Shown: positions 4,796 to 16,194 of the stretch, piece after piece
Layout of the letters: each line of letters starts with the position of its first letter
Numbering within the stretch: the stretch's first letter is position 1
Assembly: GCA_020439485.1 (NCBI GenBank)
Contig: JAGQSP010000029.1
Location: forward strand, 1 to 16,194
Source of the DNA: Acidimicrobiales bacterium
GTDB taxonomy: Bacteria; Actinomycetota; Acidimicrobiia; Acidimicrobiales; Poriferisodalaceae
Direction of reading: 5' to 3'
DNA length: 16,194 nt
Notes under the pieces: model-generated
The model's input: the letters and a program-made list of their open reading frames with translations, nothing else
Databases searched by the model: none
What the model was told of the DNA's origin: nothing
Program-made: the position numbers and the translations under genes

Positions 4796-4843
4796 TGGTG
4801 GGCGATACAGGAGTTGAACCTGTGACCTCTTGCGTGTCATGCA
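4796..4843 (-). other. Attachment site: 3' half of tRNA-Val(GAC)
   Basis: Read on the minus strand, this contains the 3' part of a tRNA. There is an anticodon loop with T-GAC-AC, the 3' anticodon-stem strand GCAAG, a five-base variable loop, a perfect T arm (ACAGG/CCTGT around TTCAACT), the acceptor strand ATCGCCC, discriminator A, and CCA at 4798-4796. The GAC anticodon means valine. Upstream of the loop only three stem bases still pair and no D arm or 5' acceptor strand follows, so the gene is incomplete. Tyrosine integrases often recombine in tRNA anticodon loops and leave such a copy (established knowledge). The break near 4840-4843 therefore marks the left end of the integrated element. 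Confidence 0.8.
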
Positions 4844-5445: not shown

Positions 5446-5473
5446 CGATTCACGACGGGAACGTCGTGAATCG
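5446..5473. repeat. Perfect 12-bp inverted repeat at the end of cassette 1
   Basis: CGATTCACGACG (5446-5457) and its exact complement (5462-5473) flank the loop GGAA. The TGA stop of the lipoprotein gene lies in the stem (5450-5452). It may terminate the minus-strand protease-lipoprotein transcript, but no T-run follows, so a binding site or RNA-stabilising stem is equally possible. Confidence 0.6.
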
Positions 5474-5941
5474 CAGGCCCACATCATCCCACCAGACTTC
5501 GAGGTCAACCACATTCTCATCGTCGAGTCTGGGTAGGTCCTCGGGCAGTACTCCAGCGACGACAACCCCTGATTCGCACTGGGGCGGGTACGACGTCAGT
5601 GTGATGGCACACGACACGACAGCATCTTCGGGCAGCGGTGGGGTATCGGCGGGCGAAGAGGTGAAGCGGGTGATGTTCGCCAATAGGCGCAACGTCAACA
5701 GGTTCGGTTCCTTACCGGACAGTGACCTGCCGACCGCATCCCACCCGTCGGGCCACGACTCCTGCGCCGGGAAGCCGGCAGGCACTTCGATCTCCGTTGT
5801 CGACTTCACCGGGTTCTCGTCCGATACTGCAGACGACTCAGAGCCGCTTACGAGGGAGTCTCCGCACGAAGCGAGCGCTACGACCGCGAGAACTGGGAGC
5901 AGCAGGGAGAAAAACCTAGCCAAGCACCATCGTGGGATCAC
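5450..5941 (-). CDS. Small lipoprotein, partner of protease 1
   Basis: The protein has 163 residues. The chosen GTG at 5941 gives a basic N-terminus, a long hydrophobic core and a lipobox ALASC (Cys26). An AGAGG ribosome binding site lies about 9 bases upstream, inside the protease gene. A TTG six codons downstream is an alternative start. The mature part has an acidic/Ser linker and then a domain of about 100 residues with VVSCAITLTSYPPQC. The two cysteines may form a disulfide, and I recall similar S-x-PPQC segments in uncharacterised actinobacterial exported proteins. The gene overlaps the end of the protease gene by 26 bp, implying coupled translation. Its role is unknown; inhibitor, anchor or immunity partner of the protease are possibilities. 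Confidence 0.72.
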   Translation of the reverse strand: MIPRWCLARFFSLLLPVLAVVALASCGDSLVSGSESSAVSDENPVKSTTEIEVPAGFPAQESWPDGWDAVGRSLSGKEPNLLTLRLLANITRFTSSPADTPPLPEDAVVSCAITLTSYPPQCESGVVVAGVLPEDLPRLDDENVVDLEVWWDDVGLRFTTFPS

Positions 5942-7808
5942 TGACCTCGACCTCTCGGTAGCGGTTGTTGCTGTACAACTCGAAACGAAGACCCGTTCGC
6001 CCGACCGGGAACGACACGGTTGTGTTGACCCACACTCGCGCCCCAGCTGGAATCGATGTCGATACGAATCTGACATCGACGCTGTAGCCGCTCCAGACTG
6101 CGAGGGTGATCGGACAGGATGAAGAGCTGGCGCACCGGATATGTGCTCCGAGGCCGATTCTCCGGTTCGCTTCGACCCATACTCCAACGTCCTGCTTCAG
6201 TGAGCAGCTCGAATATGAATTGGAACAGTCGATCAGAATTCTGCCGGTGTCCGCGTACCCGTCATCGGTGTCAATGTGGCTGAACTGTGAGTTGTCGGGC
6301 CAGCCGGTCCAGCCAGCGGTGTTGACGTTCCAGCGCGTATTCGAGAGTCTCTCTGGCTTGTCATCGATTAGGCGAAGCTGAGCCGAGTTGCCACCGAGCG
6401 GATCGATGGTGTCCATGTAGATGTCGATCGCTGTCGCGGAGTCGACAATGGCACCAGTGCCCGGAGCGTTTATGTGCGCCTTTGCCACGGCGAAGGCCTT
6501 GGAACCTATGTGCCAAAGGCCCCCGGAGTCACCCAAGACAGTCGTGGCTCGGTCAAACCAAGCGAGAGGTAGGTCAACGCTTGGTGCCTCGACGTCGTCG
6601 ATGTATCCCTTGAACTCCGCTCCGCGACACGCGGAGGACCGCGCTGCTGACAGCGAGACCCAGGTGCCGACCGTAGGGGTGTAGTTGACGAGTCCGGTGA
6701 TCTTGTAGTTCTGATCGGATGCACAGCGGTAGACGTGGTTGCTTGCATGCCAATCTGGCCAGGGAATCGTGGTGACGTCCAGACCAGCGGTGCCCGACAT
6801 CTCTTGCGTCCATGACACGTTCCACCTGGCCGTCCCCCAGTTCCCAGCGACTACTGGGTCTGGGAATCCTGAGGTGATCGTCTGGTAGTTGGAGGGAGCG
6901 CAGTGTTTGGCCGTCAACATATACGCGTCCAGCAGCCCGAATCGGATCGGAAACGCGATTGAACAGATCCCCGACGGGGTGCCGATTCCAGTTCCACCTC
7001 TCAGGTACCCGTAACAAGAAACGGTGCTGTCGCACCCGGCGCTTGTGTCGATCGTGATCGGCGCGCCAGGGACGAATCGGACTCCGATGTCGCTCAGTTG
7101 CTCGATCTTCAACACACTCGCAAGCTTCTCAGAAGTCAGGTCTCCCTGAACCAGCACCTCGTTTTCGGCGATATCGAGTTGAATTCGCTCAACGCCATCG
7201 ACCGACTTGAGACTGACGGCGACAGCCCTGAGATCGCGCAACGAGTGGGCGACTGCCCGCGTGCCGATGTGATCGGAGCTGAGGCCCGAAACATTGACCG
7301 CTTCTCTGATCAGATCGACCGCAGTGGAGGTGTCCAGGCCTGCAACAAGGATCGTGAGAGTTCCCCTTTCGAGATCCCATTCGCCGCCTGCGTACCACTC
7401 TGTCTTCTCGAGTTCTGAGAGCCACTTGCCCTCGGACTGCTGCGACTCGAGGATCCAGGCCACCTTTGAAGCTTCGGAAGCGAGAAGCCGGGCACCTATT
7501 GAGTTCACGCCGAAGAAGGCTGCCTCAGGATCCGCTGCGAATACCGCGGGGTCATCTATCTCTCGGAGGCCGAATGATGCGCGGGTCGTTGCCTCTTCCT
7601 GATCGACCGGCGCTGAAACGTCCTCGACCGCCCAGTACTCGTCGGCGGTCATCGGGGCGGGCTCTACTACGACTGGCGGCAGCTGGATATCACTCGGCGG
7701 CTCAGGTTTCGGCAAGACAGATGCGTCGTCTTGCACCACGAGGTCACGACCATTCCACTCGCCGGGGTCCGTCTCGGCGCCCGCTGCACTCGCAAGCAAT
7801 CCCAACAT
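5916..7808 (-). CDS. Secreted trypsin-like (S1) serine protease, signal peptide interrupted
   Basis: From the ATG at 7808 the protein has 630 residues. It has a Pro-rich and helical propeptide (about 15-250) containing RGTLTILVAG and VERIQLDIAENEVLV, which resembles propeptides of streptogrisin/alpha-lytic-type enzymes. The protease domain (about 255-470) has the triad His302 (LTAKHCA), Asp344 (GLDVTTIPW) and Ser428 (GDSGG), with paired cysteines. A beta-rich, jelly-roll-like C-terminal domain (about 485-630) ends near LRFELYSNNRYREVEV and may bind carbohydrate. The real start is probably the GTG at 7835, with a good ribosome binding site. From there the signal peptide hits an in-frame TAG at 7814-7812. 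Restart at 7808 would give a signal lacking its basic end. The gene may therefore be a recent pseudogene or poorly exported. Confidence 0.85.
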   Translation of the reverse strand: MLGLLASAAGAETDPGEWNGRDLVVQDDASVLPKPEPPSDIQLPPVVVEPAPMTADEYWAVEDVSAPVDQEEATTRASFGLREIDDPAVFAADPEAAFFGVNSIGARLLASEASKVAWILESQQSEGKWLSELEKTEWYAGGEWDLERGTLTILVAGLDTSTAVDLIREAVNVSGLSSDHIGTRAVAHSLRDLRAVAVSLKSVDGVERIQLDIAENEVLVQGDLTSEKLASVLKIEQLSDIGVRFVPGAPITIDTSAGCDSTVSCYGYLRGGTGIGTPSGICSIAFPIRFGLLDAYMLTAKHCAPSNYQTITSGFPDPVVAGNWGTARWNVSWTQEMSGTAGLDVTTIPWPDWHASNHVYRCASDQNYKITGLVNYTPTVGTWVSLSAARSSACRGAEFKGYIDDVEAPSVDLPLAWFDRATTVLGDSGGLWHIGSKAFAVAKAHINAPGTGAIVDSATAIDIYMDTIDPLGGNSAQLRLIDDKPERLSNTRWNVNTAGWTGWPDNSQFSHIDTDDGYADTGRILIDCSNSYSSCSLKQDVGVWVEANRRIGLGAHIRCASSSSCPITLAVWSGYSVDVRFVSTSIPAGARVWVNTTVSFPVGRTGLRFELYSNNRYREVEVSDPTMVLG

Positions 7809-7832
7809 TGCCTAGGCAATCAATAGTGGCTT

Positions 7833-7847
7833 CACGACTTACCTCCC
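7833..7847 (-). promoter_or_regulatory. Ribosome binding site and original GTG start of protease 1
   Basis: On the minus strand GGGAGGT (7847-7841) lies five bases before GTG (7835-7833), and an in-frame TAA (7841-7839) closes the frame upstream. The codons after GTG read K-P-L-L-I-A, then TAG, then A-M-L-G-L-L-A-S-A-A-G-A. Together they form a normal signal peptide apart from the stop. This supports 7835 as the ancestral start. Confidence 0.75.
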
Positions 7848-7906
7848 GACCGATGGTGCCGTTGTCATTCGCTGAAATCTCAGATTCAACGCCACCAATA
7901 TTTCGG

Positions 7907-7935
7907 AGCATGGCGACTCGCGCGACCGATGTCAA
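7907..7935 (-). promoter_or_regulatory. Candidate promoter for cassette 1
   Basis: A perfect -35 hexamer TTGACA (7935-7930) is followed after 17 bases by CATGCT (7912-7907), a weak -10 match. It lies about 70 bases before the ribosome binding site of the protease gene. The -35 is convincing, the -10 less so. Confidence 0.35.
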
Positions 7936-8430
7936 TGTCCAATTGCCGGTTCATAGTCGGCCACAAGCCAGGTCGTAGCGGCCTCGCGTTATCCGACACC
8001 CTGCCGAGTTGCATCCTGCTTAGGACCGCCGACCGCCCACAGCGGCCCAGCCGGCCGCAGGGGTGGGCCAGGGGAGTCACCGAGCAGCCCTGGCGGAAGC
8101 CGGCTCATCGACCGGATTGTGCAAGCGGGTGACCAATCTCGTCGCCTCGGCGGACCGAATCACTGCCGGGCCTGGGCGGCTGGTTCAGCTCGATGGGCTA
8201 GTCGACGAATTCGGGTGCTCGCAATCGATTCCGGGTACTCCATCCCGCAATCTCGACGCGCCCGTCGCCAACCGATCTGAAGAATTCCCAACCAGTCTGT
8301 CGCGTTTGGCCGGTCGGGAGGTCCCTGGGGTGGGGTGTGCGGACTCGGTTTGAAAGAAGGACTCAGTTCTCGGGTGTCCCTTTCGGCGACTTCGAGAGGC
8401 CACAGGTGTGTGGTCCCGGTCCGCTGTCTC
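7936..8430. other. Divergent intergenic region without a supported gene
   Basis: This stretch lies between the divergent protease 1 and excisionase-like genes. The open frames in it are short, rich in Arg/Pro/Ser and lack ribosome binding sites. I see no tRNA, repeat array or clear palindrome. It probably carries control regions for both directions. Confidence 0.4.
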
Positions 8431-8444
8431 GTGGAGGAGTTGAC

Positions 8445-8519
8445 GTGAGCCACATCCCGAATTGTCGACCGGCCCCGCCGGAAGCCCGCCTTGAGACCCA
8501 GGACTTTTCCCGTGGGTAG
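8445..8519 (+). CDS. Possible 24-residue leader peptide before the excisionase gene
   Basis: A strong ribosome binding site GGAGGAG (8433-8439) sits five bases before a GTG at 8445. The frame encodes 24 residues (MSHIPNCRPAPPEARL...) and ends at TAG 8517-8519. The stop overlaps the GTG start of the HTH gene at 8512 by eight bases, a classic arrangement for translational coupling. The peptide resembles nothing I know. It is inferred from the ribosome binding site and overlap only. Confidence 0.4.
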   Translation: MSHIPNCRPAPPEARLETQDFSRG

Positions 8520-8817
8520 GCGCGGTTTGCGGCTCGTGTACACGGTGCCCGAAGCGGCCGAGCTTTTGGGGATCGGCCGTTCGACTGCGTATGAGTACGT
8601 GGCGAGCGGCGAGATCGCGACCGTTCGTATCGGTAGCCGTCTCGTCGTGACACGTCCGGCTCTTACCCAGCTGCTCGGCGTCGAGCCGCCCCTGCCCGCA
8701 GAGATGGACGCAGTCCGCGCCGCTCTCCGCACGTCCGCTGCAACGAGCTCCTCCGCTTCGAAGCGACCTACCCCTTCGTCTGACGCCAGTCAAGAGCGTC
8801 TCCCCTTCACCGCCTGA
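8512..8817 (+). CDS. Excisionase-family HTH DNA-binding protein
   Basis: The protein has about 101 residues. The N-terminal half is a MerR-like HTH_17/excisionase domain: YTVPEAAELLGIGRSTAYEY, then VASGEIATVRIGSRLVVTRPAL. The tail is Ser/Ala-rich and probably disordered. Such proteins bind element ends or promoters and steer integrase towards excision, or regulate transfer genes. I chose the GTG at 8512 because AGGA lies about nine bases before it and the leader ORF overlaps it. A TTG at 8491 and a GTG at 8536 are alternatives. The gene lies about 110 bases upstream of the relaxase on the same strand and may form a regulatory unit with it. Confidence 0.8.
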   Translation: MGRRGLRLVYTVPEAAELLGIGRSTAYEYVASGEIATVRIGSRLVVTRPALTQLLGVEPPLPAEMDAVRAALRTSAATSSSASKRPTPSSDASQERLPFTA

Positions 8818-8830
8818 GGACCCTGTGATG

Positions 8831-8902
8831 CACCTACCGACCATCTCCCGCCACCTACCGCGATTGAAGACAGACGGTTGCACATTCAGTGCCGGTAGGT
8901 GG
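8831..8902 (+). repeat. Direct and inverted repeats before the relaxase, candidate oriT
   Basis: CACCTACCG occurs at 8831-8839 and again within CCACCTACCG at 8851-8860. The exact inverse CGGTAGGTGG is at 8893-8902, giving a 10-bp inverted repeat around a 32-base spacer. MobF relaxases usually recognise an inverted repeat beside the nick site close to their own gene (established knowledge), and the relaxase starts at 8929. The repeat could instead be an operator for the HTH protein. Confidence 0.5.
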
Positions 8903-8928
8903 TGCAGACCTATCGGGATGTGCAGTAG

Positions 8929-11900
8929 ATGACCGCCCGAGTGACGACGTTGAAGGGCGCCAGCGCTGGCGCCTACTACGTGGAGGCCCTGCCGTCCTAC
9001 TACCTGGACTCGGGTGAACCGAAGGGTGTCTGGCACGGCCGCGGTGCAGAGCTTCTGGGCCTGCACGGCGAACTCATCGACGACGAGTTCCTGGCGGTGA
9101 TGGCCGGCCTGCGCCCAGGCACTGATGGCGAGGTGCATCTGGGGCGGGTGATGGGCGACTCGTCGGTTCGGGGGTTCGACGTGACGGCGTCGGCGCCGAA
9201 GTCGGTGTCGGTCATGTTCGCAGTCGGCGACGACGACACCCGCCGACACGTCCTGGAAGCCCACGACACCGCAGTCAGGGTGATGATCGACTGGATCGAA
9301 ACCCATGCTCATACCCGGTTCCGGATCACCGGGCAGGTATCGGTCGTGGACGCCGAAGGGATCGTGGCGGCGGCGTTCCGCCAGCACACCTCACGGGCCC
9401 TCGATCCGCAGTTGCATACCCATGTGGTGGTCTCGAACCGGGTCCGCTCACCCGATCGACGCTGGCTCGCGTTGGACGCTCGGAGTTTGATGTTGGATCA
9501 GCGGACCCTGTCTGCGATCTACCACTCGACGCTGCGCTCGCAGTTGTCGGGCCGGCTGGGTGTGGTGTGGGAACCGGCCGAGAACGGGATCGCCGAAATC
9601 TCCGGCATCCCCGAGGCCGTGCTCGAGGAGTTCTCCTCGCGCACTCTCGATGTGCAACGAAGGATCGATGCGAAGCTGGACAGGTTCATCGACACGTTCG
9701 AACGCCAGCCGACACCGAGGGAGCGGTGGCGCCTCGAACGCGAAGCCGTCATCGACTCCCGCCCCCTCAAAGCGACCGCGGTTGATGGCGAGTCGCTGCA
9801 CGAGGGGTGGACACGCCAGGCCGACGCGACGGGTTTCGACCCGTACTGGCTAGTCGCCGATGTCGTCGGCCCACCACGCGCCCAAGCTCTCGACACCGAC
9901 ATCGCATCTGCGGCTGTGAAGGCTGCGGTTGACGCGCTTGTGGAGCGCCAGTCAAGCTGGCGTCCAGCAGAGCTGACCCGAGAGATCGCCGCCACCCTGC
10001 CGACCGATATCGCCATCGACCCGGCCGAGATCGTCGGCGTGTTGGATTCGTTGACCTCCCAGGCGATCGCGGCTTATTGCGTCGACATTTCCCGACCTGT
10101 CCCTGATGGTGTCGCGGTGCGCCGTGATGGCCGCCCTTTCGCCGAATCTGTGGCTGATCGGGCGATCACCACACCCGAGATCCTCGCCCAAGAAGAACGA
10201 CTCACCGCCTGGGCCCAACGACGGCTGGCAGACCCAGGCCTCGACTCGACTACCGCGCCCGACCTGTCCTCGCGCCGATTGACCGCACCCCAAGCCCAGA
10301 CCGCCGCCGCAGTAGCTGGCACCGCCGACCTTGTCCTGGTGGTCGGGCCCGCCGGTACGGGAAAGACCACCGCCCTCGCTCCCGCCGTGGCCCAGTTGCA
10401 GGCAGAAGGCCGTCCGGTGTTCGGGGTCGCACCGTCCGCCGCGGCCGCTGACGTGTTGGGCTCCGAGACCGGTGTGGGGGCGGACACGATCGACAAGCTC
10501 CTCGTCGAACACTCCGGGCGCCGCCCACCCGATCACCGCTATGACCTTCCGGCAGGGTCGACGATCATCGTCGACGAGGCCGGGATGATCGCCACCGACC
10601 GCTTCGACCGCCTCGCCGAACTCGCCGACACCAAAGCCTGGCGCATCGCGCTCGTCGGTGACCCGCTGCAGTTCTCCGCCGTCGGCCGGGGTGGCATGTT
10701 CCAGTTCCTCCTCGACGCCCACGGAGGTATCGAACTCGACCAAGTCCACCGATTCATCAACCAGTGGGAACGAGACGCGTCACTACAACTGCGCCAAGGC
10801 GACCCAGCCGTCGCCAAGATCTACGACCTCCACGACCGTCTCCACGGTGGAACCCTCACCCGCATGACCGGCCAAGCTCTCGACGAATGGTGGACCGCAC
10901 GCCACAACGGCGACAACGTCGTGCTGGCTGCGCCAACCAACGACACGATCATCAACCTCAACCGTGCCGCCCAGCAGATGCGCCTCGACGCCGGGGAACT
11001 CGACCCCCGAGGCCGCACCACAGAAGCCGGCCCGGCCCGCTACCAGATCCACGTGGGTGATGAGATCGTCACGCGGCAGAACGACCGCCAGATCAGAACC
11101 GACCGCGGCCTCGCAGTCCACAACCGAGACCGATGGCACGTCGACACCGTCCACCGCAACGGCGACATAACCGCCTACGGCACCACAGGCCGTGTACGGC
11201 TCCCAGCCGGCTACGTCGCCGACCATGTCGAACTCGGCTACGCCCAAACCAGCCACGCCACCCAAGGCAGAACCGTCGACCGATCCATCCTCCTACTCGA
11301 CACACCCTGCGACGTACGCGGGATCTACGTACCAATGACCCGCGGACGCGAACACAACAGCGCCTACATCGTCACCACAGGCGAACAGACCCCGGCCGAT
11401 GTGTTCGCGGAGTCGATCGCCCGCAGCTGGATCGACCAACCCGCCCTCGCCCGCCAAACAGAACTCACCGGCCAGAACCTCCACAAGCCCGGAGGCCTTC
11501 CCGCGGTCGAGCTTCGAACGCTGCTGCGGACGCGGACCGATCTCAACCGCCAGATCGGCCACATCAACAACGACAGCCGACAGCTCCCAAGGCAGATGGC
11601 CCAACTCGAACGCGCGAAAGAGCAGGCCGTCTCCCAGCTCGGATCCGACCGGTCAAGACTCAAACATGCCCACGACACCCTCGCCGCTCACGACAGGCCC
11701 CTCCGACGCCGAGGCCACGAAATCGAAATCGCAAACGCCCACCGGGCCGCCGACTACCTGCCCGCCGACATCGACAAGACGGCCGCCAAGATCGCCGAAC
11801 TCGACACCAAGATCACCGACCTGCACCACAAGATCGAAACCAACAACAAGCTCTCGCCGTCGGTGCCGCAACTTCAGAAGCGGCTCGACAATGTCAACGA

Positions 11901-12204
11901 CCGACTGCACGACGACTTCACCGTCCGGCGACGCCAGAACACCCTCGACCCACCAGCCCACGTCACGAATCAGATCGGCGAACGCCCCACAGGCGGACAC
12001 ACAGCAGACGCCTGGGACCGCGCCGCCGCCCAAATCGACCAACACATCACAGCCTTCGGACCCGCCAAGTTCCTCCAAAGCGGATCGGGGCTCCCACACC
12101 CCGCCGCCCGCGAAAGCCACGCCATCACCGGAGGCCTCATCCGAGGACTCCGAGACACCAGATCCCGAGAACTCGACGGCCCATCCCTCGGCATCGGGAG
12201 ATGA
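8929..12204 (+). CDS. MobF/TrwC-type conjugative relaxase with RecD-like helicase
   Basis: The protein has 1091 residues. The N-terminal relaxase domain (about 1-300) has Tyr pairs at 16/17 and 24/25 and the metal-binding histidines His153, His163 and His165 (DPQLHTHVVV). A superfamily 1 helicase follows (about 450-830), with Walker A GPAGTGKT (473-480), Walker B IIVDEAGM, GDPLQFSAVGRGG, YAQTSHATQGRTVD and YVPMTRGREHN. The last 220 residues form a long coiled coil and a charged tail. The enzyme should nick one strand at oriT, stay covalently bound through Tyr and unwind the strand for transfer. The ATG at 8929 directly follows an in-frame TAG and gives the typical N-terminus; its ribosome binding site is weak. 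No T4SS or coupling-protein gene accompanies it here. Confidence 0.93.
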   Translation: MTARVTTLKGASAGAYYVEALPSYYLDSGEPKGVWHGRGAELLGLHGELIDDEFLAVMAGLRPGTDGEVHLGRVMGDSSVRGFDVTASAPKSVSVMFAVGDDDTRRHVLEAHDTAVRVMIDWIETHAHTRFRITGQVSVVDAEGIVAAAFRQHTSRALDPQLHTHVVVSNRVRSPDRRWLALDARSLMLDQRTLSAIYHSTLRSQLSGRLGVVWEPAENGIAEISGIPEAVLEEFSSRTLDVQRRIDAKLDRFIDTFERQPTPRERWRLEREAVIDSRPLKATAVDGESLHEGWTRQADATGFDPYWLVADVVGPPRAQALDTDIASAAVKAAVDALVERQSSWRPAELTREIAATLPTDIAIDPAEIVGVLDSLTSQAIAAYCVDISRPVPDGVAVRRDGRPFAESVADRAITTPEILAQEERLTAWAQRRLADPGLDSTTAPDLSSRRLTAPQAQTAAAVAGTADLVLVVGPAGTGKTTALAPAVAQLQAEGRPVFGVAPSAAAADVLGSETGVGADTIDKLLVEHSGRRPPDHRYDLPAGSTIIVDEAGMIATDRFDRLAELADTKAWRIALVGDPLQFSAVGRGGMFQFLLDAHGGIELDQVHRFINQWERDASLQLRQGDPAVAKIYDLHDRLHGGTLTRMTGQALDEWWTARHNGDNVVLAAPTNDTIINLNRAAQQMRLDAGELDPRGRTTEAGPARYQIHVGDEIVTRQNDRQIRTDRGLAVHNRDRWHVDTVHRNGDITAYGTTGRVRLPAGYVADHVELGYAQTSHATQGRTVDRSILLLDTPCDVRGIYVPMTRGREHNSAYIVTTGEQTPADVFAESIARSWIDQPALARQTELTGQNLHKPGGLPAVELRTLLRTRTDLNRQIGHINNDSRQLPRQMAQLERAKEQAVSQLGSDRSRLKHAHDTLAAHDRPLRRRGHEIEIANAHRAADYLPADIDKTAAKIAELDTKITDLHHKIETNNKLSPSVPQLQKRLDNVNDRLHDDFTVRRRQNTLDPPAHVTNQIGERPTGGHTADAWDRAAAQIDQHITAFGPAKFLQSGSGLPHPAARESHAITGGLIRGLRDTRSRELDGPSLGIGR

Positions 12205-12218
12205 GCTCGGACAAACTC

Positions 12219-12247
12219 GCCTTCTGCCTCCGACCGGGCAGGAGGGC
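12219..12247 (+). terminator. Hairpin after the relaxase gene
   Basis: GCCTTCTGCC and GGCAGGAGGGC can pair over about ten base pairs with one bulge, 14 bases after the relaxase stop. No T-run follows. The rest of the 156-base gap to the convergent lipoprotein gene holds a weaker CACCCC/GGGGTG stem (12297-12320) and nothing else I can support. Confidence 0.3.
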
Positions 12248-12360
12248 GATAGTCGGAGTTCCGAGCTAGGCCCGCCGCCGCAGCCGTGGACATGACCACC
12301 CCCGACGTAACGGCGGGGTGACAGTCCGCTGCAACACTGCTTTCACCTGCGGTCTCGCCC

Positions 12361-12891
12361 CTAGCCGCCGGCTTCGATAGAGGTGACCCGGCCGAATCCT
12401 GAGACGACCGAGGCACCGAGCATCTCCCTGCATCGCTCCAACAGCGCAACTGCGGAGGCGTCAGCGGCCTCCAGAGCCTGCAGGACGGAGTACCCGCCAC
12501 CGCCGCCCAAGATGCGGTCCCCGGCTTCGATCGTCTGTCCGTCGGCTAGCACGATCTGCTGGTTCTCGTCGTCCCACCGGGTCCCGAAAGGCCAGCCCAC
12601 GAGATCTCTGCCGGGCCCCTCAGTCAGATACACGCATCCGTCGACGATCTCGATCGTCCCACCGAGCCCTGCGGCGTTGATGACGTCGGGCGCGCGGGCG
12701 GCTACGAGCAAAGGACCATCGGAGGTCAACCCCTTTGCCTCCGCGATCTCCTCCACGGTCGAGGCCGTGGTCTCCACAACAGAAGTAGTTGGCAACTCGT
12801 TGCCCCTGTCTTGGGTCGAGTCGCAAGCCGCCACCAGCAGCAGGGTAGCGAGAGCGGCCGCCAGCACTCGTTTAGCAGACTCGGCCGTCAT
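12361..12891 (-). CDS. Small lipoprotein, partner of protease 2
   Basis: The protein has 176 residues. The ATG at 12891 gives the signal MTAESAKRVLAAALATLLL with lipobox VAAC (Cys23), and GGAG lies nine bases upstream inside the protease gene. After a Thr/Glu linker, a compact domain (about 60-150) contains IEIVDGCVYL, GWPFGTRWDDE and LADGQTIEAGDRILGGGGG. A helix with a second Cys follows. I do not recognise a named family. The start overlaps the end of protease 2 by 20 bp, so the two are probably translated together. It is not visibly related to the lipoprotein of cassette 1. Partner roles such as inhibitor or anchor are inferred only. Confidence 0.78.
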   Translation of the reverse strand: MTAESAKRVLAAALATLLLVAACDSTQDRGNELPTTSVVETTASTVEEIAEAKGLTSDGPLLVAARAPDVINAAGLGGTIEIVDGCVYLTEGPGRDLVGWPFGTRWDDENQQIVLADGQTIEAGDRILGGGGGYSVLQALEAADASAVALLERCREMLGASVVSGFGRVTSIEAGG

Positions 12892-14794
12892 ACGCTGATG
12901 CTCCAGACGTAACCCTATTCGCGAACTCCGTGCTTCCGGTGAAGCTGTTGACCACCGTCGTCCAGGCGGCTTCACTCGTCAACTGGTTCGCCCAAGACGT
13001 CAACCCGCCCGAGTCCGACGGGCGTCCCATCATCGTCCAGTACGCGAGTTCAACCCTTATCTTGCGTCTGTCGTAGGTGTTGATCGGGTACCGGCCCCTG
13101 AACTCCGAGCTTGTCAGAATACCGCTGGCAACCTCAGCCGCCCTGGGCACTGTGCACAGATCGAGTTTGTTGCGCCAGTGGTTGTAGCCGTTCAGATCTG
13201 CAAAGCGACCTAGGCCGTGCTCGTACATCCCCAACACGAAATCGCGGGCTCGGTCCGTCGTCGTGTACACGCTCAGGCCCGACTCCACGTCGGCCAAGTG
13301 CTGTACCGAACCGATCACAGCCTCCCCGTTGCTGTCGTAGGCACCCTTGTATACGCCAACAGCAACCCAAGGCGCGGTCTGCCTATACACCGGACCTCCA
13401 CTGTCGCCCTCCGAACCAGCGACAGCAACCGACCCTCGTATCTGCTCGATGAATTCGACTTGCGTCTGATCGTCAGTTGCATCCTCCCCCACGTCGACAA
13501 CCGTTCCACACGCTGCTACATCACTGTTTGCGCCGGTCCGACAGATCGACTCGCCGATCATCGACGTGCCATAGGCCAGAGTGCCCGTGACAGTCGTGGC
13601 GGAGTTCAAGCCGGTCCTGAGTCGATTGGTCACGAGGAAGTTGCTCTCCTCGATCGTCTGACCATCGAGTCGGGACTGGTCGTAGTGACCGCTTGATCCG
13701 TAGGCACCGATGTACACATCGCGGGTCATGTTGAAGAAGGCGGAGTAGGTCCAGCTACCGCCACCACTTCCGGCTGCAAACTGAGCGTCAGGGCCGGTGC
13801 CCAGACAGTGACCGGCGGTGAGCCAGTCTCGGCCACCTGACGAACTCTCGACGGCGAAACCAAGGGAGCACCAGCTGTCACTCCAACGGCGCTCGATCTC
13901 GATACCAGCACGCTGAGGTGCGCACCCGAACCGGTTGCACGGGTCCTTGCCATGATCAGCCATGACCGTTTCACCAACAGTAAATGCGAAACGTGGCAAA
14001 CCCTCGAGCGAGAGCGATGCTCGACTAGCCGAACCGGGGCGGAGGTCAACCACGACCTGGTTGTTGCGAAGACTCCAGCCAACGGCTACGACCTCGGGGT
14101 CTGTGGCAAGCTCTGCGATCTCATCGCCCAATTGCTCCCGGTCACCAGCCCGCCCGTTGCTCCGCACGGCACTTCGAATCGCCTCCGCAGCTTGCCGCAG
14201 CTCGGCAAGTGATGACTCGACCTCCTCAACCGAAACGCGACCCCCGTCGCCTCCCAGCTCCTCGGTGGCCTCCTCAGCCTCGGCCAACCCGCTGTGCGTG
14301 CTCAGCAGCGCCACCGAAGGCTCCGAGAATGCCGGCACACCCGCCCAGTCAATCCGAACACCCGCGAACCATGTCCGGTCGTGTAGCTGCTCGACTAGCA
14401 GTATCGCCGCATCCTCCACAGCACGTGCATGCAGGAACGCTGCCTCTTCCGCCGCGTCGAGCACCACGCCATACTCTCGTACCTGGTCAATGGCACCTGG
14501 GGCACGAACCAGTTCGGCGGTGAGCAGGCGATCGCCCGGCAGACCCATCGCGATGCGTTGACGAACGTAGAAGTCGACAAGTTCTTCGTGGTCACCTGGG
14601 AGAGCTCCGTTGGCGAGTTCCTCGGGCGTCTCGAATGGCAGCGACCGATCGTGATCGTACCGAGGGTCCGGCACCGGGATCTCGTAAGCGATCTGACCCG
14701 ACCCCAGCTCTTGCTCGCCTCCATCCGCAGATACCGCAGGCGTGCTCGCCGCAACGAGCCCAGCCACCAGTACTACGAAGCACCAGCGCTTCAT
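12872..14794 (-). CDS. Secreted trypsin-like (S1) serine protease with DUF4214-like tail
   Basis: The protein has 640 residues. The ATG at 14794 is chosen because it starts a standard signal peptide (MKRWCFVVLVAGLVAAS, cleavage after AVSA at about 23) and follows GGAAGGTGGGG. A helical propeptide of about 270 residues precedes the protease domain (about 295-515). That domain has His329 (LTAGHC), Ser465 (GDSGGP) and a likely Asp372 (HYDQSRLDG), with Asp359 as the other choice. The entry segment C-x4-C...IEIERR...CSLGF matches the same point in protease 1. Residues about 515-640 resemble DUF4214 (LGRFADLNGYNHWRNKL, MMGRPSDSGGLTSWANQL), a domain of bacterial surface and secreted proteins. The enzyme should act outside the cell; its substrate is unknown. 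Confidence 0.88.
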   Translation of the reverse strand: MKRWCFVVLVAGLVAASTPAVSADGGEQELGSGQIAYEIPVPDPRYDHDRSLPFETPEELANGALPGDHEELVDFYVRQRIAMGLPGDRLLTAELVRAPGAIDQVREYGVVLDAAEEAAFLHARAVEDAAILLVEQLHDRTWFAGVRIDWAGVPAFSEPSVALLSTHSGLAEAEEATEELGGDGGRVSVEEVESSLAELRQAAEAIRSAVRSNGRAGDREQLGDEIAELATDPEVVAVGWSLRNNQVVVDLRPGSASRASLSLEGLPRFAFTVGETVMADHGKDPCNRFGCAPQRAGIEIERRWSDSWCSLGFAVESSSGGRDWLTAGHCLGTGPDAQFAAGSGGGSWTYSAFFNMTRDVYIGAYGSSGHYDQSRLDGQTIEESNFLVTNRLRTGLNSATTVTGTLAYGTSMIGESICRTGANSDVAACGTVVDVGEDATDDQTQVEFIEQIRGSVAVAGSEGDSGGPVYRQTAPWVAVGVYKGAYDSNGEAVIGSVQHLADVESGLSVYTTTDRARDFVLGMYEHGLGRFADLNGYNHWRNKLDLCTVPRAAEVASGILTSSEFRGRYPINTYDRRKIRVELAYWTMMGRPSDSGGLTSWANQLTSEAAWTTVVNSFTGSTEFANRVTSGASAYDGRVC

Positions 14795-15096: not shown

Positions 15097-16194
15097 TCAC
15101 GTTGCACCGCCGCTCGACAGCAAGTCGCCCCACGCCTGAGCAGCATGCGGGAGGCTGGGCCGGATGTTGTGGCGGTAGCCCTGGGTGGTCCGGGTGTCCA
15201 CGTGACCGGCGAGGTCGGCAACCTTCGCGAGGTCGTCGAGTTGATCGCTGACGAGCGAAACGAACGAGTGACGCAGCTCGTATGTCGTCCAGTCCTCGCC
15301 CACGCCGGCGTTGCGGCAAAGCTGACGGAACGCCCGGCGCATGTTCGCCTTCGTCATCGGGGTCCCATTGCCAGTGCAGAACACAATCCCCTCATCGTCA
15401 TACAACCCAAGCAACCGCTGATCCTCACGATGACGCAGAAGCGCCGCCACGAGCAACGGATGGAGCGCCATGCGTCGACGGCTCCGGGCCGTCTTCGGCT
15501 CGCCCTGGCCGACATATCGATGGTTCACCTCAATAGCCGACTCGGCGACCTCGAGCGTCGGCGTGTCGGAGTCAATGTCGACGTAGGGCCAGCGCAGGCC
15601 TGCCAACTCGCCAGGTCGCAACCCGCACATCAGGCCAGTCAGCCACATCGCAGGGCGAGGATCGGCCGGGATGGCCTTGGTCAACAGAGCCTGAGCCTGT
15701 TCGAGCGTGAAGCTCTTGCGAGGCTTCGACGGACGCCTCTCGGGCAACAGAACATCGGCGGCAGGGTTCGTCTTGATAGTCCGGTTCCGCTGGCCGTGCT
15801 GGAGAGCCTGGTTCAGGTAGTTCCAGTTCCTGTCGATCGTGCTGGTTGCATAGGAATCAACCATCGATGCGAATAGGCCTTCAAGCCGCCGCGTAGTCGT
15901 CCGGTCGACCTTGAGCGAGCCGATGGCTGGAATGACCGATGCGCCGAGAAGCTGGCGAGCATTCACAATCGTGTTGGGCGATTTGGTTCTCGCGTGCCGT
16001 GAGGTTCTCGAAGGCGCCACGTTGGGACATCCGTCGGCGAACCACGCCTCGATGACCTCGGCGAACGACGCCAGGCGGTTCCGTGGCGCATCGGGAGACT
16101 GTGCCTGCACTCGCAGGGTGATCAGCGCATCGAGATCCGCCTGGGCATCGGCCTTGTCGACACGCTCGACCTTGCGACGCGATCCGTCGGGGAA
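15097..16194 (-). CDS. Tyrosine integrase, N-terminus cut by the window edge
   Basis: 365 residues are visible; the frame stays open to the right edge, so the start lies outside and the GTG at 16110 is internal. An AP2-like/SAM-like core-binding region covers about the first 140 residues. The catalytic domain follows, with Arg193 in LMCGLRPGELAGLRW, a Lys near the GEPKTARSRR hairpin, Arg308 in YELRHSF, His331 in LAGH and Tyr340 in TTQGYRH near the C-terminus. In the first HxxR position Tyr replaces His, a common variant in actinobacterial integrases. The enzyme should recombine the element with the 3' half of tRNA-Val, using the HTH protein as excision factor. Its place at the end away from the displaced tRNA fragment fits an intact tRNA just to the right. 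Confidence 0.92.
   Translation of the reverse strand, partial: FPDGSRRKVERVDKADAQADLDALITLRVQAQSPDAPRNRLASFAEVIEAWFADGCPNVAPSRTSRHARTKSPNTIVNARQLLGASVIPAIGSLKVDRTTTRRLEGLFASMVDSYATSTIDRNWNYLNQALQHGQRNRTIKTNPAADVLLPERRPSKPRKSFTLEQAQALLTKAIPADPRPAMWLTGLMCGLRPGELAGLRWPYVDIDSDTPTLEVAESAIEVNHRYVGQGEPKTARSRRRMALHPLLVAALLRHREDQRLLGLYDDEGIVFCTGNGTPMTKANMRRAFRQLCRNAGVGEDWTTYELRHSFVSLVSDQLDDLAKVADLAGHVDTRTTQGYRHNIRPSLPHAAQAWGDLLSSGGAT

Follow-up and report, generated by a model that had tools for sequence, protein, structure and literature searches.

Two overlapping protease-lipoprotein gene pairs on a predicted mobilizable element of an Acidimicrobiales bacterium

Two overlapping gene pairs

The window (the whole stretch of DNA analysed, 16,194 nucleotides) is contig JAGQSP010000029.1 (C77) of an Acidimicrobiales assembly (GCA_020439485.1) that consists of 777 contigs and is 77% complete. 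It carries a predicted mobilizable element with two minus-strand units, in each of which the end of a gene for a trypsin-like (S1) protease overlaps the start of a lipoprotein gene:

5450-5941, minus strand: lipoprotein 1 (LIPO1), 163 amino acids, GTG start at 5941, alternative TTG at 5923; signal peptide and lipobox LASC
5916-7808, minus strand: protease 1, with pro region, S1 trypsin-like domain and C-terminal add-on; open frame, aligned with protease 2 in profile A3
7809-7835, minus strand: 5' portion of the signal-peptide sequence of protease 1, from GTG 7835; broken by the in-frame TAG 7812-7814
12361-12891, minus strand: lipoprotein 2 (LIPO2), 176 amino acids, ATG start at 12891; lipobox AAC, weak member of family A4
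12872-14794, minus strand: protease 2, with pro region, S1 domain and DUF4214, from Pfam, profile and model data

The overlap is 26 bp in unit 1 if LIPO1 starts at GTG 5941 (8 bp if TTG 5923 is used) and 20 bp in unit 2, where LIPO2 starts at ATG 12891. The open reading frames (ORFs) and starts behind these overlaps, described in an earlier note on this DNA, were confirmed. The same note had treated 5450-7835 as an intact unit, which the reading frame contradicts. GTG 7835 is preceded by a good ribosome-binding stretch (GGGAGG), and its eighth codon is the in-frame TAG, within the signal peptide; the frame opening at ATG 7808 begins with merely a stub of that peptide. Either the TAG is a sequencing error or the protease 1 gene is disabled, and unit 1 as sequenced probably has a signal peptide that is disabled or misread.

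In the alignment protease 1 displays C-x5-C, CSIAF, TAKHC and GDSGG, and protease 2 C-x4-C, CSLGF, TAGHC and GDSGG. The layout proposed earlier was thus found in part: pro region, Cys motif, His and Ser motifs and a C-terminal add-on are present in both enzymes, and the CS-x-GF strand in protease 2 only. The position of the Asp is of low confidence. The catalytic domain in the model of protease 2 had a predicted local distance difference test score (pLDDT) near 20-25, and no conclusion was drawn from this unreliable part. In protease 2 the add-on is DUF4214 (Pfam E value 1.6e-16); in protease 1 it gave no Pfam match. The pro region of protease 1 showed weak matches to heavy-metal domains.

When profile A3 was compared with PDB chains, it matched 2oua (1.1e-9), alpha-lytic protease 3ure (1e-8) and streptogrisin B (6e-6). 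Searched as single sequences, protease 2 matched 2oua at 0.0071 and protease 1 gave no such match. By these profile matches both proteases group with the alpha-lytic/streptogrisin-type S1 enzymes, the alpha-lytic protease/streptogrisin/NAPase family, which we take to be MEROPS S1E. For the pro region of protease 2, structure prediction tentatively suggests the fold of the alpha-lytic pro region. The homologue P0003 is 47% identical to protease 2.

The two proteases matched each other at BLASTP E 0.033 (25% identity over about 130 columns), and the best E value between LIPO1 and LIPO2 was 4. Duplication of a module within the element was ruled out by the unrelated lipoproteins and the distant proteases. 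The units are better read as two independent acquisitions, and the layout common to the proteases seems to be one of architecture, without close kinship.

Recurrence of the pair in related genomes

Relatives of the proteases in the same order were scored by a blind rule, which required on the same strand an ORF that encodes a lipoprotein signal and starts at -80 to +160 bp relative to the stop codon of the protease gene. Among 28 matching places one was a second place of the same gene and was omitted; in 8 of the other 27 loci no closed frame with recognisable His and Ser motifs was seen, leaving 19 proteases of the A3 family. Controls were 305 genes from 20 stretches in six genomes of the same order. 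Since the genome searches scored two or three candidates per genome where many existed, the tallies are lower bounds.

A lipoprotein gene lay just downstream of 9/19 A3 proteases (7/17 without the window). By the same rule the control rate was 12/305 genes, and 2/57 among exported-type genes (Fisher p = 1e-5 without the window, relatedness uncorrected). A looser lipoprotein rule was applied to 22 loci, consisting of the 19 proteases plus L049, L055 and L070, and gave 10/22 proteases versus 10/304 control genes. Post hoc inspection, made without control, found a lipoprotein next to the protease in 13/22 loci. That of L055 is slightly past the 160 bp limit and behind a protease frame without Ser motif. 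In three more loci (L049, L051, L053) a single-pass protein is next to the protease, and L060, L066 and L068 have no partner there.

Overlap of the two genes also recurs: by 19 or 10 bp in L003/L004, 19 or 4 bp in L106, 23 bp in L065 and as ATGA in L054. In L008/L103, by contrast, lipoprotein and protease genes are convergent. The combination of protease and lipoprotein is therefore a real, recurrent module, although it is not specific to this element. The earlier proposal of a functional module gains from this recurrence and from the partner with a copied pro region described below; the repetition of the layout on both sides of the transfer genes, offered then as an argument for it, more likely reflects the independent acquisitions suggested above. 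An adjacent lipoprotein gene, whose absence from most homologues would have counted against that proposal, was lacking by the blind rule in 10/19 cases (10/17 without the window), which does not clearly decide against it.

Partner families and a copied pro region

None of the partners scanned had a match at the Pfam cut-off; the scan left out L052, L061, L064, L067 and L070. LIPO1 gave neither a Pfam nor an NCBIfam match. Family A4 comprises the partners of L052, L061, L064, L071 and L054 and, weakly, LIPO2. Against leave-out A4 profiles LIPO2 scored E 0.022 to 4.6e-5, above every background sequence; with L065 as a single sequence the value was 0.18. Outside A4, a profile of LIPO2 alone matched the L065 lipoprotein best (E 0.003); the gene of this lipoprotein overlaps that of its protease. 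The predicted structure of LIPO2 was of insufficient quality for a fold search or for comparison with the lipocalin-like inhibitor fold. In the public protein P0009, some 38 residues resembling the start of the window's integrase are fused to a LIPO2 homologue; this is either a deletion between integrase and LIPO2-type genes or an assembly chimera.

The A4 profile was used to search 12 chosen genomes, all with an A3 match, and found 11 loci in 7 of them; two rows at E near 0.03 were left uncounted. Because the profile had been built from partners already seen, the held-out loci were counted apart. Three of these five (G320:C34, G624:C1 and G481:C42, not G324:C10 and C11) had an S1 protease directly upstream. 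A second partner family (L047, L048, L056) also detected the partners of L049, L055, L062 and L046/L070 in a collection of 12,010 ORFs in which such loci are over-represented; each of these partners is downstream of an A3 protease. By eye this family is possibly META/HslJ-like. The L055 lipoprotein (2376-2861) matches Pfam META along the whole domain at a sub-threshold E of 0.24, a possible fold lead; no META match was found by Pfam in the other scanned members of the family or in the L004/L106 lipoproteins. Searching the PDB with the ectodomain of L047 returned nothing relevant.

The lipoprotein at G481:C42 (L136, L164) contains, after its A4 domain, a copy of the pro region of the upstream protease (42% identity over 123 residues, E 3e-25). 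Two further lipoproteins (L050/L165, 871-2031; L058, 1369-2700) contain the pro region of a protease but lack a protease domain. No pro region was found on searching LIPO1, LIPO2 and most of the remaining partners.

Alpha-lytic protease is the textbook case of an enzyme that is both folded and inhibited by its pro region, and this pro region inhibits its own protease. Since it also sits across the active site, as stated in the available part of PMC2829044, an anchored copy of a pro region would most simply be an inhibitor on the surface of the maker.

The predicted mobilizable element and its relatives

The remaining features of the window are:

4796-4842, minus strand: 3' fragment of a tRNA, anticodon loop to CCA; candidate att end of the element, from sequence and comparison
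8491-8817, plus strand: excisionase-like HTH_17 protein (Pfam HTH_17 1.2e-11; TIGR01764 1.3e-9)
8929-12204, plus strand: MobF relaxase, TrwC plus helicase (PF08751 4.4e-75; NF041492 1.3e-64)
15097-16194, minus strand: tyrosine integrase, 5' end cut by the contig end (PF00589 2.8e-16; 70% identity to the L110 integrase)

ARAGORN and Rfam called no whole tRNA at 4796-4842, and Rfam at gathering thresholds gave zero matches in the window. In L110 the 70%-identical integrase directly follows an intact tRNA-Ala(GGC). Alignment to this tRNA placed GAC at the anticodon of the window fragment, which was therefore assigned to tRNA-Val. Contig C634 of the same genome contains the 3' part of a tRNA-Ala, and the sequence preceding it resembles that at the window fragment. 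This second fragment (L013, about 1495-1550) is Ala, the one in the window Val-like. Two tRNA 3' fragments preceded by similar element-end sequence indicate that the genome probably contains a second related element.

Judged from the tRNA-fragment end and the comparison with L110 and C634, the element spans about 4840 to beyond the contig end, where its other end must lie, and includes both pairs. Both units are on the same side of the located end as the integrase, the excisionase-like protein and the relaxase, in agreement with the earlier assignment of both to one integrative element. An integrase and a relaxase together on one element are the mark of an integrative and mobilizable element (IME), and no gene for a conjugation pore was seen among the window proteins scanned (8 by Pfam, 10 by NCBIfam). 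The element carrying the pairs is thus predicted to be mobilizable. As a known anti-phage defence system it was rejected: PADLOC, run on six window proteins, matched the helix-turn-helix protein alone, as mad1.

Of 397 genomes in the order, at least 77 had a related relaxase at E 1e-60, the window's own genome included. An S1 protease of this family was present in 0/20 fetched neighbourhoods of such relaxases (18 genomes, several neighbourhoods ended by contig ends); the motif was sought in called genes, and the motif together with profiles of the catalytic domain, the pro region and both partner domains in 2,780 ORFs. Conversely, the wider neighbourhoods of eight related pairs were inspected. 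Pfam identified mobility genes in three: a TrwC relaxase beginning about 2 kb from the pair, beyond an ISL3 transposase (L172), a Tn3 transposase and a tyrosine recombinase (L103), and a transposase gene on either side of the pair (L166). In the other five (L164, L167, L170, L171, L173), viewed without Pfam scan, none was recognised. An IS110-type transposase adjoins L105, the same pair as L003, and by eye L106 had no mobility genes. Some pairs thus have mobility genes close by, without this being general, and the tie to integrative elements proposed earlier extends no further than that.

A plasmid- or phage-borne family was likewise unsupported. tblastn searches of plasmids with both proteases and both lipoproteins, and of phages with protease 2, gave DUF4214 matches or nothing, and viral contigs had no match for the relaxase or alignment A2.

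The neighbourhoods L107-L125 and L088 encode MobF relaxases, often close to an integrase, together with diverse cargo that in part looks defence-like by eye; they represent MobF mobilizable elements of one family within the order. One related element (L124, 2814-8816; relaxase 67% and excisionase 75% identical in the aligned parts) encodes an RHS-repeat protein of 2000 residues between its excisionase and its integrase. In another (L119, 7094-8002) the relaxase is directly followed by a lipoprotein gene and a gene for a small exported protein.

Discussion

Our preferred interpretation, to which we assign a probability of roughly 0.45, is that each unit encodes an exported alpha-lytic-type protease and, in the overlapping gene, a lipoprotein that is its likely membrane-anchored inhibitor and would spare the surface of the maker. 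The protease would be exported and matured by removal of its pro region. Translation of the two genes may be coupled through the overlap. The lipoprotein would bind and inhibit the protease, and the producer would gain because its own surface is spared while the enzyme acts outside. For LIPO1 and LIPO2 the inhibitor role is an extension from shared gene order and anchoring. For LIPO1 no relatives were found in the 12,010 ORFs of the fetched loci or in plasmids (the protein database was unsearched).

The anchored partner could instead be a folding helper or a docking site, which binds the nascent protease outside the membrane and aids its maturation or holds it at the surface. The pro-region copy of L164 suits folding help as well as inhibition, given that the alpha-lytic pro region accelerates folding of its protease about 10^9-fold (available part of PMC2829044). 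Overlapping genes and stoichiometric expression fit a complex, and DUF4214 and the other add-ons could be tethers. However, the proteases have a pro region in cis, so that a second helper is not obviously needed, and most partners, including both in the window, have no detectable one to offer. We consider this role unlikely.

Equally doubtful is that the partners are ordinary neighbours, co-transcribed secretome genes whose products have no contact. Short overlaps are common in GC-rich genomes and overlap alone is weak evidence; the partner families are diverse, and three loci (L060, L066, L068) manage without a partner. Yet the control rates (12/305, exported-type 2/57) argue against chance adjacency, the search with partner domains leads back to S1 proteases, and one partner contains the pro region of its neighbour.

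Least probable is a surface sensor or substrate that is cut by the protease or senses it, at some loci as an anti-sigma-like protein after an extracytoplasmic function (ECF)-type sigma factor: L046/L174 and L047/L175 encode protease, sigma factor (in L046 Sigma70_r4_2 at 7.8e-16) and a single-pass protein with the ectodomain family of the L048, L055, L056 and L062 lipoproteins, and L063 has a sigma-like gene next to the protease (the third gene was seen in L046 and L047 only), but such a gene is next in only 3/22 loci, two of them named by eye, and none lies between protease and lipoprotein of the window pairs.

A membrane-anchored inhibitor would have precedents in other protease classes. According to the available part of PMC3462683, co-transcribed protease-inhibitor genes are found for the Bacteroides C10 proteases with staphostatin-like inhibitors (Btp/Bti, Bfp/Bfi), SpeB/Spi and staphopain/staphostatin, and some Bti inhibitors are predicted lipoproteins; a reference title in that paper gives inhibitors of the staphostatin/Bti type a lipocalin-like fold. 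As there, an exported protease with a propeptide adjoins a small inhibitor-like gene. Unlike those papain-like cysteine proteases, the enzymes of the window are of the S1 type, the partner genes overlap the protease genes, and a partner can contain the protease's own pro region. The S1 profile match and the predicted pro-region fold link the window proteases to alpha-lytic protease, streptogrisin and NAPase, from which they differ by extra domains (DUF4214 or an add-on without Pfam match).

The secreted trypsin-like domain with C-terminal add-on also recalls UmbA of the Streptomyces umbrella toxins, likewise from actinobacteria (PMC11062931, available part). The trypsin-like domain of UmbA, however, is non-catalytic and has UmbB and UmbC as partners, whereas the window proteases keep His and GDSGG and have a pro region. 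Pfam found no UmbB/UmbC-type domains in the 8 window proteins scanned, a subset of the ORFs. The element itself resembles the canonical IMEs of a 2017 review (PMC5704250, available part) in its tyrosine integrase in a tRNA gene, its own relaxase, the absence of a visible pore gene and a size of at least 11 kb. It differs in the MobF relaxase; the part of the review that names canonical IME relaxases lists MobP, MobQ, MobV and MobC and does not name MobF.

No description of an S1 protease with an anchored partner gene was found in the open-access literature searched. Co-transcribed protease-inhibitor genes are already known, and on our best reading it is the S1 protease with an overlapping lipoprotein gene that would be new here. 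A much bolder extension, which we regard as speculative and improbable, would make these pairs a widespread self-protection class in these actinobacteria, with dedicated anchored ectodomains of several independent origins, among them pro regions copied from the protease itself, and with mobilizable elements spreading the pairs as portable protease-and-immunity weapons.

If the inhibitor interpretation is true, self-protection against exported serine proteases would have a general genetic form, in which the inhibitor, be it the pro region or an unrelated domain, is a separate surface lipoprotein. Several lipoprotein families without Pfam assignment would thereby acquire roles, and exported protease pairs would join the known cargo of MobF mobilizable elements.

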